Below are positions 34,644 to 40,160 of a stretch of 64,000 nucleotides of DNA, in pieces (the first letter of the stretch is position 1; each line of letters starts with the position of its first letter). The position numbers were made by a program, and so were the translations under genes. This DNA comes from a bacterium. GTDB taxonomy: Bacteria > Zhuqueibacterota > QNDG01 > JAFGCO01. The stretch is taken from assembly GCA_016932575.1 (NCBI GenBank), contig JAFGCO010000017.1:7693-71692 (forward strand), written 5' to 3'. The notes under the pieces are model-generated. The model did no database searches. It saw nothing but the letters and a program-made list of their open reading frames with translations, and was not told the DNA's origin.

Positions 34644-34706
34644 AATGTCTTTGAGATCATTCAGAATTTCAATAAGTTAACAGATTTAATCAAAATGGAG
34701 GTCAAA

Positions 34707-35102
34707 ATGGGTAAACTGGGTCAACATATAAGAGAAGCCGACTGGAAAAGCGAAAAGCATGTTCCGGTGATTGAATGTCCGGATCAGGTAAAAGCCGGAG
34801 AAATTTTTGAAGTCAAAGCCTCATTGGGGAAAGAAATTGCGCATCCCAATACGACTGAACACCATATCTGCTGGATTTCGTTATATTTTCATGCAGAAAA
34901 TGAGAAATTTAATTATCATGTCGGGCAATTTGAATTTAATGCGCATGGTGAATCTGACGAAGGTGCAAATGCGGGTCCTGTATATACGCATCATTCGGTC
35001 ACAGCCAGTTTAAAAGTGGCAAAATCGGGAACCCTTCATGCGCTGGCATTTTGTAATATTCATGGCCTTTGGGAATCATCCAGGGAAATCATGGTCGTAT
35101 AA
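34707..35102 (+). CDS. Superoxide reductase (neelaredoxin, class II)
   Basis: 131 residues with only the SOR domain and no N-terminal desulforedoxin part. The active-site iron ligands are His18 (in EKHVP, with the conserved Glu16), His46, His52, Cys116 and His119 (CNIHG). It reduces superoxide to peroxide without making oxygen, with electrons from rubredoxin. ATG 34707 is chosen because the upstream in-frame ATG 34695 is part of the ATGGAGG that serves as ribosome binding site. Neighbours are two ferritin-like genes and, further upstream, rubredoxin and rubrerythrin. Confidence 0.95.
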   Translation: MGKLGQHIREADWKSEKHVPVIECPDQVKAGEIFEVKASLGKEIAHPNTTEHHICWISLYFHAENEKFNYHVGQFEFNAHGESDEGANAGPVYTHHSVTASLKVAKSGTLHALAFCNIHGLWESSREIMVV

Positions 35103-35216
35103 TCAGGGTATTTTCCAACAATTTTAATATTGAAAAAATTGTCGGAGAATGTTATATACAATGACCGGCGATTCATGAATTCTAATTGTAGCAAACATTT
35201 TTATTCAGGAAAAATC

Positions 35217-35669
35217 ATGAAATTAAAAACAGTGCAGGAAATTATTGATTATGCCATTGACCGTGAAAAAGAGGCTGTATCCTTCTATACCACATGCAGC
35301 GAAAGAACCAACCGCGATGAAATGCAGGATGCTTTCATAGAGATGGCCGCTGAAGAAGCAAAACATATAGATTTGTTAAAAAATATGGATGCAGCGGTTT
35401 TACACGAAACAGCCGTTGAGCGTTTAAATGATCCCAAAATGGAATCGTATATTGTTGAAAAATCTTTTCATCCGGATATGTCGTATCAGGATCTGCTTCA
35501 GCTCGCCATACACAGGGAAGCCGCGAGTGTCCGGTTGTATAAAACGCTTGTTGAGCAGACGGATGATGCTGCGGTCAGGAGTATTTTATTAAAGCTGGTG
35601 ACTGAAGAGTTGAAACATAAAGAACGACTGGAAGAGTTTTACAATACAGGCGTGCTTCAGGAGAACTAA
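35217..35669 (+). CDS. Ferritin-like diiron protein (rubrerythrin-type helical domain) 1
   Basis: 150 residues. The four-helix layout carries paired carboxylate motifs: IDYAIDREKEAVSFY, MAAEEAKHIDLL, LAIHREAASVRLYKTLVEQ and VTEELKHKERLEEF, i.e. Glu and Glu-xx-His on alternate helices as in rubrerythrin. The rubredoxin tail is absent. ATG 35217 is preferred (AGGA 8 bp upstream, first helix starts there); an in-frame ATG at 35130 would add 29 residues with no motif. Probably scavenges peroxide or binds iron. Next to superoxide reductase. Confidence 0.8.
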   Translation: MKLKTVQEIIDYAIDREKEAVSFYTTCSERTNRDEMQDAFIEMAAEEAKHIDLLKNMDAAVLHETAVERLNDPKMESYIVEKSFHPDMSYQDLLQLAIHREAASVRLYKTLVEQTDDAAVRSILLKLVTEELKHKERLEEFYNTGVLQEN

Positions 35670-35720
35670 ATTTTTTTCACTCGTACCGTATAAAATAAAG
35701 ATAAGGAGGAAAGAAAAATC

Positions 35721-36221
35721 ATGAAAGCTGCAATGCTTAGTACGGAGAAAGCGTTATCCATCGCGATTCAATCAGAGTATGCGGCTGAAGATGCGTACAA
35801 ATTATTAATGAAAAAAGTAAAAAATTTTATATTGAAAGATAAACTGAAATTTTTGTCTTCTGAAGAGAAGAAACATCAGAAAATATTATTGACGTTGTTT
35901 CAAAAAATGTTTCCGGGAGAGGAACCGTCAAAAAATGAAAAATTATTAATGCCGCGGTTGACATTGGCCCTGGAAGAAAATGCGTCGGTCCCTGATTTGC
36001 TGGAAATGGCAATAGAAACAGAAAAAGTATCCGAAGAATTTTATGACGATCTTTCACAAGAGGTGGAAGACCGAACTGCTCAGGAAATTTTACAGTATTT
36101 GGCCAGTATGGAACATGGGCATTATTTTCTTTTGAAAGGTGAATATGATTTATGCATGAGAGATGAGGAATATTATAACCGGGATGAATTCTCTGTGGAT
36201 ATGGTCCATGTAGGCCCGTAG
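35721..36221 (+). CDS. Ferritin-like diiron protein 2
   Basis: 166 residues with four helices: LSIAIQSEYAAEDAYKLL, LKFLSSEEKKHQKILL, LLEMAIETEKVSEEFYDDL and LQYLASMEHGHYFLLKGEYDL supply Glu/Glu-xx-His sets. The C-terminal tail (YYNRDEFSVDMVHVGP) resembles that of rubrerythrin-related ferritin-like proteins. AAGGAGG precedes ATG 35721. It is only distantly similar to the gene 51 bp upstream and may be a second member of the same oxygen-defence unit. Confidence 0.78.
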   Translation: MKAAMLSTEKALSIAIQSEYAAEDAYKLLMKKVKNFILKDKLKFLSSEEKKHQKILLTLFQKMFPGEEPSKNEKLLMPRLTLALEENASVPDLLEMAIETEKVSEEFYDDLSQEVEDRTAQEILQYLASMEHGHYFLLKGEYDLCMRDEEYYNRDEFSVDMVHVGP

Positions 36222-37276: not shown

Positions 37277-38440
37277 ATGATGCAAGATCGAATTTATATG
37301 GATAATTCGGCTACGTCCCAGCCCGATCCGCAGGTGGTTAAGGCAATGCTGCCCTATTTTATTGAACAGTATGCAGTGGCTTCTTCTCAATTCAGTCATA
37401 CGCCTGGTATTCAGGCACGAGAGGGATTGGATCAGGCCAGAGAAATTATCACAAAGAAATTGAATGCGGAACAGGAATCCGTAATATTTACTTCCGGAGG
37501 TACGGAATCCAACAACCTGGCTTTAAAAGGGACAGCCTGGGCGCATCAGGGCAAAAAAAACCATCTGGTCATTTCCAAAATCGTTCATAATTCCGTGTTG
37601 CACAGTGCGCAATGGCTTGAAAAACAAGGTTTTGATATCACTTATATAGATGTGGACGAACAAGGATTTATTGATCCCGATCATATCAGGGAAGCGATTA
37701 CAAATCAAACGATTTTAGTCAGTGTTCAGCATGCCAATCATGAAGTGGGTACAATTCAGCCAGTACAGGAGATCGCCCGGATTTGTCAGGATGCGGACAC
37801 TCTTTTTCACATCGATGCGTGCCGCAGTTTCACAATGCTCGATCTGAATCTTCAGACATTACCTGCAGATCTTGTCTCCATCACCGGGCATCTGATCCAT
37901 GGGCCGAAAGGCGTGGGTGCTCTTTATATTCGACCAGGTACCAAAATACAAAAATGGCAGCATGGCGGATATCACGAATTTGATAAACGTGCGGGTACAG
38001 AGAATGTGGCGGGGATTGTTGGATTCGGGAAATCAGTAGAACTGGCTCAGCAAAAACATGTCGACTATATTCGTGGATTGCAGAAACAACTGATGGATGG
38101 CTTAATACAGGAAATTAAGGGGACAGTCATCAATGGTCCGCTGGATCCGGATAAACGTCACCCGGGAAATGTCAATGTGTCTTTTAGCCGGGTTGAAGGA
38201 GAATCGGTCGTTCTTCATCTGGACATGAAAGGAATATCCGTTATAACCGGATCTGCCTGTTTTTCACGGTCCCTGGAACCCAGTTACGTTATGATGGCCA
38301 TGGGTTTCAGTCATGAGCGGGCCCATGGATCGATTCGATTTACATTGAGCCGGTTCAATCAGGAATCGGAGATCGGGCGTGTCATTCGAAGCTGCAACGA
38401 CGTTGTTGAATCGTTAAGAAAAATCAGCCCGTTGCAATAA
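37277..38440 (+). CDS. NifS/IscS-family cysteine desulfurase-like protein lacking the PLP lysine
   Basis: 387 residues, full length and colinear with E. coli IscS. Conserved: YMDNSATSQPDPQVV, FTSGGTESNNLALKG, His104 (HNSVLH), an Asn at the IscS Asn155 position (HANHEVG), Asp180 (HIDA), His205, RAGTENVAGIVG and the persulfide Cys328 in GSACFSRSLEPS. Two cofactor residues are changed: the Schiff-base lysine (SGHK in IscS, Lys206) is Leu206 in ITGHLIHGPKG, codon CTG at 37892, and Gln183 is Arg183. The usual PLP chemistry should therefore be impaired, while a sulfur-carrying Cys remains. The frame is otherwise intact, so this is not a decayed gene. It is followed by IscU-like, TusA-like and DsrE-like genes, which points to sulfur transfer. 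Confidence 0.88.
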   Translation: MMQDRIYMDNSATSQPDPQVVKAMLPYFIEQYAVASSQFSHTPGIQAREGLDQAREIITKKLNAEQESVIFTSGGTESNNLALKGTAWAHQGKKNHLVISKIVHNSVLHSAQWLEKQGFDITYIDVDEQGFIDPDHIREAITNQTILVSVQHANHEVGTIQPVQEIARICQDADTLFHIDACRSFTMLDLNLQTLPADLVSITGHLIHGPKGVGALYIRPGTKIQKWQHGGYHEFDKRAGTENVAGIVGFGKSVELAQQKHVDYIRGLQKQLMDGLIQEIKGTVINGPLDPDKRHPGNVNVSFSRVEGESVVLHLDMKGISVITGSACFSRSLEPSYVMMAMGFSHERAHGSIRFTLSRFNQESEIGRVIRSCNDVVESLRKISPLQ

Positions 38441-38578: not shown

Positions 38579-39217
38579 ATGGCGATTCCGTATACGCAAA
38601 AAGTTCTCAACCATTTTATGCATCCCCATAATGTCGGTAAAATAAAGAATGCTGATGCTCAGGCTACAGAAGGCAGCCCGGCCTGCGGCGATATGGTGAA
38701 AGTGTATTTAAAAGTGGATTCAGACACGAAAGTGATTACGGATATAAAATTTGAATCCTATGGCTGCGCTTCCAATATTGCCACCGGATCTATTATCACG
38801 GATCTGGCGAAAAACAAGTCCATTGAAGAAGCCAAAGCGATCAGCTGGAAAACAGCAAACGACGAACTGGGCGGGCTGCCGCCGGTAAAGGTCCATTGTG
38901 CGGTTTTAGCAGTTGATGCGCTAAGAACAGCGATCGAGAATTATGAGCATCAGCATGGATTATTGAAACACAAAATACCCACCTCGGAAGAAATTGTGAT
39001 GAAACGGCTGTCAAGGGTCATTAATCCCCTGGCCGGCCTGGATGTTGTCAAAACCAAGCTGGTGCAAAAGTGTAATATACAGAATGGATGTGCAACGATT
39101 TATCTTGAATTGCCCGAAGATCATCAGTTTGCCGGCAATATAAAAAATGAAATTATTGAGAGGATCGAGCCGCTTTGGGATATTCATAAAGTCATTGTAA
39201 TTTTCAGGGGAGATTAG
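38579..39217 (+). CDS. IscU-type Fe-S scaffold fused to a MIP18/DUF59-like domain
   Basis: 212 residues. Residues 1-125 are an IscU/NifU-N scaffold with the three cluster cysteines Cys36 (PACGD, with Asp38), Cys63 (YGCAS) and Cys107 (VHCAVLA), plus His106. Residues 135-212 (EEIVMKRLSRVINPLAGLDVVKTKLV, CATIYLELPEDHQF, IKNEIIERIEPLWDIHKVIVIF) follow the MIP18/DUF59 pattern found in SufT and in ApbC N-termini. Fusion of scaffold and DUF59 in one chain is unusual. It would build a cluster and hand it on. AAGGAG precedes ATG 38579. The TusA-like gene starts 1 bp after the stop. Confidence 0.82.
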   Translation: MAIPYTQKVLNHFMHPHNVGKIKNADAQATEGSPACGDMVKVYLKVDSDTKVITDIKFESYGCASNIATGSIITDLAKNKSIEEAKAISWKTANDELGGLPPVKVHCAVLAVDALRTAIENYEHQHGLLKHKIPTSEEIVMKRLSRVINPLAGLDVVKTKLVQKCNIQNGCATIYLELPEDHQFAGNIKNEIIERIEPLWDIHKVIVIFRGD

Positions 39218-39218
39218 A

Positions 39219-39443
39219 ATGGATCCGGATATCATTGTTGATGTGATTGGAGAAACCTGTCCTGTTCCATTGGTGGAAATGCGGAAGGCTGTGTTAAAAG
39301 CGGAAAAAGGCAAAGTGATTGAAGTCAAAGGCACGCATCCGGCCTCAAAGCAGGAAATCCCCATGGCTGTGGATTCATTGGGACTGAAGTTGTTGAAAAC
39401 CGAGGAGTCAGATGGAATCTGGCACATCTATATACGACGTTGA
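39219..39443 (+). CDS. TusA-family sulfur carrier
   Basis: 74 residues. The signature VIGETCPVPLVEMRKAV contains CPxP with the persulfide Cys14. Length and the single alpha/beta fold are normal. TusA proteins accept sulfur from cysteine desulfurases or rhodaneses and pass it to DsrE-type proteins or to biosynthesis of thiolated tRNA and cofactors. It is translationally close to the IscU-like gene (1 bp gap) and followed by a hairpin-rich spacer and a DsrE-like gene. Confidence 0.9.
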   Translation: MDPDIIVDVIGETCPVPLVEMRKAVLKAEKGKVIEVKGTHPASKQEIPMAVDSLGLKLLKTEESDGIWHIYIRR

Positions 39444-39517
39444 GACTGTTGAAAAACCATTCTAAACATTATTTTTAACCTCAGGGAGGTTAAATTTACA
39501 ACTTTTTCGACAGTCTC
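39442..39517. repeat. 76-bp double inverted repeat between the tusA-like and dsrE-like genes
   Basis: The outer arms GAGACTGTTGAAAAA (39442-39456) and TTTTTCGACAGTCTC (39503-39517) match at 14 of 15 positions, and the mismatch becomes a G-U pair in RNA. Inside lies a second perfect repeat, TTTAACCTC-AGG-GAGGTTAAA (39474-39494). It could be a MITE, an RNA control element or an attenuator. The dsrE-like start is 15 bp beyond the right arm, with its own AGGTG ribosome binding site. Confidence 0.7.
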
Positions 39518-39531
39518 GTCAGGTGAATTTC

Positions 39532-39945
39532 ATGAAGATGACCATTGTTGTTCATAGCGGTGATTTAGATAAGGTCATGAGCGCTTTAATTCTTGGAAAT
39601 GGAATATTGGCCATGGGTGGTGACGTAACACTCTATTTTACATTCTGGGGATTGCAGCGTCTGGTTCGTGGCAGGTTTTCGAAGGCGCCGTTGTCAAAGA
39701 TGCATTTTATGGGCCTTGGCAAGTGGATGATGGTTCAGAGAATGAAAAAGAACCGGGTGGCCGAACCCGAGCGTTTAATGGAAGATTTCAAAGCGCTTGG
39801 CGGCAGGGTGATTGCCTGTGAAATGACCATGGAATTGATGGGACTTTCAAAAGATCAGATGAACGATCAGTGGATCGATCATTATGGTGCAGTAGGGTCG
39901 TACGTGAAGGAAACAGAAAACGCGGATAATACTTTGTTTATTTGA
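39532..39945 (+). CDS. DsrE/DrsE_2-like sulfur-relay protein
   Basis: 137 residues: MKMTIVVHSGDLDKVMSALILGNGILAMGGDVTLYFTFWGLQ is the typical start of the DsrE2/peroxiredoxin-like group. VIACEMTMELMGL carries the candidate persulfide Cys96. Charged residues around 55-75 (KMHFMGLGKWMMVQRMKK) suggest membrane or protein contact. It would receive sulfur from the TusA-like protein. ATG 39532 has AGGTG 8 bp upstream; an in-frame GTG at 39523 is less likely. The TGA stop (39943-39945) overlaps the first GAGTC of repeat region B. Confidence 0.82.
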   Translation: MKMTIVVHSGDLDKVMSALILGNGILAMGGDVTLYFTFWGLQRLVRGRFSKAPLSKMHFMGLGKWMMVQRMKKNRVAEPERLMEDFKALGGRVIACEMTMELMGLSKDQMNDQWIDHYGAVGSYVKETENADNTLFI

Positions 39946-40080
39946 GTCTTAAGGTCGTTGAGTCGTAGAGTCATAGGGTCGTTGTTAGAGAAGCTGAAAC
40001 GGAGCGTGGGCGAGACGGAGAAACGGAGAGAAAAAAAAGAAACAAGAATCAAGAAATAAGAATCAAGAAACAAAATAAAA
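39944..40080 (+). repeat. Composite octamer repeat region B (3' of dsrE-like gene)
   Basis: GAGTC-type octamers (39944-39985) start inside the stop codon of the preceding gene. They are followed by the GAAACGGAGC/GAGACGGAGAAACGGAG block (to about 40030) and AAGAATC/AAGAAAC heptamers to about 40070. The order of modules is the same as in region A, but the MITE-like core is missing. Confidence 0.85.
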
Positions 40081-40160
40081 AAACAATGCTTAAGTCACAA
40101 AGTTCAAATCTCAGACAAGACAAAATGATGCATATTCACAATATCAAGGGAGGATTGTTT

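Follow-up and report, generated by a model that had tools for sequence, protein, structure and literature searches.

Results

The window (the whole stretch of 64,000 nucleotides that was analysed) carries on its forward strand a cassette of sulfur-related genes in the order NifS-like protein, IscU fused to DUF59, TusA and DsrE2, so that the first-pass annotation was right to place the gene of interest at its head. This first gene (37277–38440) is an uninterrupted reading frame of 387 amino acids coding for a protein of the NifS/IscS fold that lacks the PLP lysine, as judged from its sequence, family matches and structure alignment. It is followed by the fusion (38579–39217; Pfam NifU_N 1.8e-41, FeS_assembly_P 1.9e-6), in which the IscU cysteines, the aspartate of the CGD motif (Asp39) and the HC motif are all retained. 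Then come a TusA-like sulfur carrier with its CPxP cysteine (39219–39443) and a DsrE2-like sulfur carrier, recognized by family matches, with the conserved cysteine of ACEMTME (39532–39945). A superoxide reductase and two rubrerythrin-like genes lie upstream on the same strand (34695–36221), and several relatives within the order likewise have such genes ahead of the cassette.

Between TusA and DsrE2 there is an inverted repeat of ca. 76 bp on the forward strand (39442–39517; arms GAGACTGTTGAAAAA ... TTTTTCGACAGTCTC, inner palindrome TTTAACCTC/GAGGTTAAA), mobile-element-like and outside the mechanism proposed below. At the same junction the relatives L003 and L010 show a 12-bp gap or an overlap instead, and the repeat resembles a small palindromic insertion. 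A second copy was not found within the window. Beyond the 3' end of DsrE2, positions 39946–40085 are occupied by low-complexity repeats (GTCGTTGAGTCGTAGAGTC..., GAGACGGAGAAACGGAGAG).

The genome to which the window belongs (4.41 Mb, 94.5% complete) is the sole representative of its family. A normal IscS elsewhere in this genome, a point raised in the first-pass annotation, does exist: L002, with the ordinary SAHK motif and 42% identity to the NifS-like protein. A second IscU and one SufB/D core match are present as well.

The NifS-like protein matches the aminotransferase class V fold of Pfam (PF00266, E 4e-75), and its score against the NCBIfam NifS model TIGR03402 (448.6 bits) is below the cut-off of 530.75, which the paralogue L002 clears (538.2 bits). 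Its alignment to solved IscS structures is colinear and poor in gaps, as had been claimed, with His104, Asp180, His205 and Cys328 retained. Leu206 (codon CTG, 37892–37894, at least two changes away from a lysine codon) falls on the Schiff-base lysine, and Arg183 (CGC, 37823–37825) on the PLP-contact position Gln183, all exactly as first read. We also found changes that had gone unmentioned, namely N155H, E103V and A204G. Of the features expected in a cysteine desulfurase, the PLP Schiff-base lysine and the PLP contacts Gln183 and Asn155 are therefore missing (Leu206, Arg183 and His155 here), and the persulfide or cluster-ligand cysteine on the mobile loop, Cys328 (TGT, 38258–38260), is in place within the sequence TGSACFSRS. 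Among the residues that contact TusA, E49, D52 and R55 are kept and W45 is Ile. The ORF is confirmed as a genuine NifS/IscS-fold protein without the PLP lysine.

In the AlphaFold model of the protein (pLDDT 89.3, pTM 0.89) the fold is intact. The model superposes on the IscS of Escherichia coli, human NFS1 and the IscS of Archaeoglobus fulgidus with Z of 50–54 and rmsd of 1.1–1.5 A (for E. coli IscS 1p3w, Z 53 and 1.2 A over 368 residues; for A. fulgidus IscS 4hvk, Z 51 and 1.3 A), and only loop 228–239 and the Cys loop 327–331 were predicted with low confidence.

A named genome collection scanned with the single sequence yielded five loci. Of 12 genomes searched from the order of the window, 8 carry the protein, and it was absent from the other searched genomes of the phylum (82 genomes in all), while further members were found in other lineages. 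The 18 distinct sequences form a monophyletic clade, to the exclusion of both canonical NifS/IscS and A. fulgidus IscS, with support of 100/100 in a 34-row tree, and the same clade is recovered with 97/86 in a 68-row tree. In every one of the 18 loci the IscU::DUF59 fusion, with its IscU catalytic residues intact, comes directly after the NifS-like gene. The carriers are less constant: at least 10 of the 18 loci have TusA beside the pair and 7 have DsrE2, and both are missing at L004, L005, L012 and L075–L077. The nearest homologue outside the clade (L063, in L068) has a neighbouring IscU that is unfused. In L125 (3838–7514) and L126 (4145–7820) there are tandem NifS-IscU pairs, in which a canonical-type pair and a separate DUF59-like gene (judged by eye) stand beside the fused pair; this arrangement, with one DUF59 separate and one fused, suggests a route by which the fused cassette could have originated.

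When the 18 members were compared with 46 canonical homologues, the contrast at the PLP site was clear. H104, D180, Q183 and H205 are invariant in all 46 canonical proteins and K206 in 45 of them. Among the clade members, 17 of 18 have lost Q183 and all 18 have lost N155. Lys206 has given way to Leu in the window protein, to Arg in L009 (codon CGC) and to Thr in L074 and L091, which come from two species of another lineage. Four members have Asp, Pro or Asn where H104 would be, four carry D180N and five carry H205D. Of the 18, 10 are without at least one of H104, D180, H205 and K206; the remaining 8 retain all four. C328, A327, G325 and R354 are conserved in every member. The PLP contacts of IscS are well established for the E. 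coli enzyme, and in active enzymes R354 is the residue that holds the carboxylate of the substrate. Restricting the count to columns with at least 95% invariance among the canonical proteins, and taking four or more changed clade members as a loss, all six PLP-contact columns were lost versus 9 of 51 other columns (Fisher p 1.4e-4).

A single grouping of the lysine-less clade members was rejected (AU p 6e-5). Judging from these sequences and trees, Lys206 was lost at least three times within the clade (to Leu, Arg and Thr) and H104 three times. The expectation that homologues with a GHL motif would share the operon proved literally untrue, as Leu206 is private to the window lineage and most of the nearest homologues sharing this operon carry AHK. 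Since other bacterial groups contain relatives in which different catalytic residues are gone, the branch seems to have been repeatedly converted from an enzyme to a structural or sulfur-relay partner. However, the members that keep K206, H104, D180 and H205 may be active desulfurases, so that a partner-only role need not hold for the whole clade.

Two further replacements of the PLP lysine were seen outside the clade. L063 (1501–2658; G088:C239) is a canonical-type NifS in which Arg replaces the PLP lysine and Leu replaces R354, possibly another independent loss; the draft genome G088, from the same small phylum as G082–G086, yielded no other class V aminotransferase. L105 (1459–2619; G001:C2:12864–13970) is an EF2568-type desulfurase-family protein with Cys at the PLP-lysine position (FTGHCLMGPTG), and a TAA was flagged inside this match by the first search.

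The genomes G083 and G085 are of special interest. The class V aminotransferases found in them are a NifS-like protein of the clade with D180N and H205D and one other protein, SerC-like by inspection; IscU::DUF59 is the only NifU_N protein found, and the SufB/D core was not found in these drafts (96% complete, a value taken from G572 and G708, judged identical by their shared contig number and coordinates). The pair is thus the only NifS/IscU/Suf-type system detected there, and G082 and G086 give the same picture. Presumably the cassette is the working Fe-S scaffold in these organisms in spite of the changed PLP site, although residual catalysis is possible there as K206 is retained.

Discussion

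We believe that the NifS-like protein of the window is probably a non-desulfurase partner of IscU::DUF59, in which Cys328 acts as a ligand or relay and the sulfur comes from elsewhere. That it would be a persulfide carrier or a scaffold had already been suggested in the first-pass annotation, and on our analysis this stays the leading reading. Desulfurase activity would be gone, by analogy with the E. coli IscS mutants K206A, H104Q and Q183E, all with zero activity (PMC9978102). The protein would persist as a dimeric subunit of NifS fold in a putative complex with the fused scaffold, having kept its docking surface as well as the mobile loop by which Cys328 could reach the IscU site. There, Cys328 might either give an extra cysteine ligand to the nascent [2Fe-2S] cluster, as in the lysine-less IscS-IscU of A. 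fulgidus, or hand on sulfane sulfur. The source of sulfur could be sulfide, or a persulfide relay via TusA and DsrE2 that would be loaded by the separate normal IscS of the genome. Sulfide or elemental sulfur does feed clusters in some anaerobes devoid of desulfurase (PMC12442378), and homologues of DsrE and TusA exchange sulfur groups (PMC4175335). One detail speaks against a partner role: R354 is kept in all 18 clade members and is Leu in A. fulgidus IscS.

Cys328 might instead serve as a persulfide relay and not as a cluster ligand, taking up sulfur from TusA/DsrE2, or else from the separate normal IscS, and passing it to IscU::DUF59. The frequent company of TusA and DsrE2 described above is what one would expect in that case, and so is the docking of E. 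coli TusA on IscS beside the Cys328 loop (PMC2854127), given that the window protein retains the contacts E49, D52 and R55. However, with both carriers missing at several loci of the clade, the relay cannot be its constant function, and we regard this as a possible but less probable role. It is unlikely, on the other hand, that the protein is still catalytic, holding PLP non-covalently or through another lysine and carrying out slow desulfuration or acting on another substrate. It is true that E. coli IscS K206A retains some binding of PLP and gives adducts with cysteine (PMC9978102), and that H104, D180, H205 and R354 are all retained in the window protein. But that same mutant is inactive, as are H104Q and Q183E, and the clade has also parted with Q183 and N155 almost throughout. 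Lys211 of the GPKG motif, which had been put forward as the replacement lysine, must be rejected: it is the ordinary lysine of IscS, present in 45 of the 46 canonical homologues and thus no substitute, and it is Arg in the relatives with Thr206.

We also considered that the gene is just decaying in this lineage, its function lost because a normal IscS is present, and that it is a future pseudogene. The intact IscS, the other IscU and the SufB/D match in the genome would allow it, the pocket has a cluster of private changes, E103V, A204G and Q155H, and an insertion-like inverted repeat has come to sit between TusA and DsrE2. And yet the frame is open, the Cys loop and the C-terminal surface are fully conserved and IscU::DUF59, TusA and DsrE2 are intact. 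Similar losses recur in other lineages, in some of which only this scaffold pair was detected. The non-synonymous divergence of the window gene from its relatives (dN 0.24–0.36) falls within the range among those relatives themselves (0.21–0.36), although saturation of dS precludes a formal dN/dS. Its branch in the 68-row tree is no longer than those of its lysine-bearing sisters, and its 11 private changes at sites otherwise invariant in the order equal those of the lysine-bearing L014. With such ordinary dN and branch length a plain pseudogene is disfavoured and we consider decay quite unlikely, in line with the original preference for a changed function, which the conserved pair, the invariant Cys loop and the recurrent PLP-site losses with the cassette kept also favour. 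An assembly or base-calling error at the lysine codon, conceivable in that a single draft assembly represents the family, is extremely improbable: CTG is two or more changes away from AAA/AAG within an intact flanking frame, Q183R and N155H go along with Leu206, and the relatives show independent replacements by Arg and Thr.

Extending the partner reading to the clade, we put forward more tentatively, giving it somewhat less than an even chance, that NifS-like protein and IscU::DUF59, often with TusA and DsrE2, form an Fe-S module in which NifS was repeatedly made a non-catalytic ligand or relay, with assembly running on sulfide or carrier sulfur rather than on cysteine, and that this module is the sole detectable Fe-S scaffold system in at least one bacterial phylum-level group. 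In the open-licence literature lysine-less IscS proteins were previously known from a few archaea and could pass as an oddity. That varied PLP residues are lost repeatedly within a bacterial clade while Cys328 and the scaffold stay fixed suggests that a non-enzymatic role of IscS is selectable in itself. With these natural variants one can test whether the part of IscS in [2Fe-2S] assembly goes beyond supplying sulfur. They are also a warning, as annotation by family name would miscount such proteins as cysteine desulfurases.

Several known systems share part of these features. E. coli IscS and bacterial NifS have the same fold, Cys328 loop and IscU partner, but possess the Schiff-base lysine, Gln183 and Asn155 that are gone here. 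DUF59 acts in Fe-S maturation also in SufT, and in the Nfu-SufT protein of Oligotropha it is fused to another Fe-S module (PMC4982691), the only fusion that our search of the open-licence literature for IscU-DUF59 turned up; unlike Nfu-SufT, the DUF59 of the cassette is joined to the IscU scaffold and tracks the NifS-like clade. The minimal MIS system (MisS/MisU; Garcia et al., via PMC12442378) is likewise a complete two-gene system of IscS-like and IscU-like proteins, going by its description, but in the accessible part of that source MisS is a homologue of the cysteine desulfurase IscS and a DUF59 fusion goes unmentioned.

The closest parallels are archaeal. IscS1 of Methanosarcina acetivorans, compared by its description, also lacks the catalytic lysine and has an adjacent IscU gene, although M. 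acetivorans has an active IscS2 too (PMC7585200). A. fulgidus IscS2 (PDB 4eb5, 4eb7, 4hvk) is of the same fold, has Asp in place of the PLP lysine and keeps the loop Cys; it is the best PDB match of the window protein by sequence, with 43% identity in the structural alignment. According to PMC7585200, it is inactive as a desulfurase and forms (IscS-IscU)2, in which its cysteine coordinates the [2Fe-2S] cluster of IscU (Marinoni 2012; Yamanaka 2013; Pagnier 2014). The window protein, with lysine absent, loop Cys present and an IscU gene adjacent, agrees with this type. However, A. fulgidus IscS falls outside the clade and has an ordinary N155 together with H205N and R354L. A shared ancestry of the lysine loss was rejected, both by the tree, in which the clade excludes A. 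fulgidus IscS with 100/100, and by the AU test, where a lysine-less grouping including A. fulgidus IscS fared even worse (p 2e-28) than one of clade members. Most likely, then, the NifS-like protein resembles the published lysine-less IscS of A. fulgidus through independent losses.
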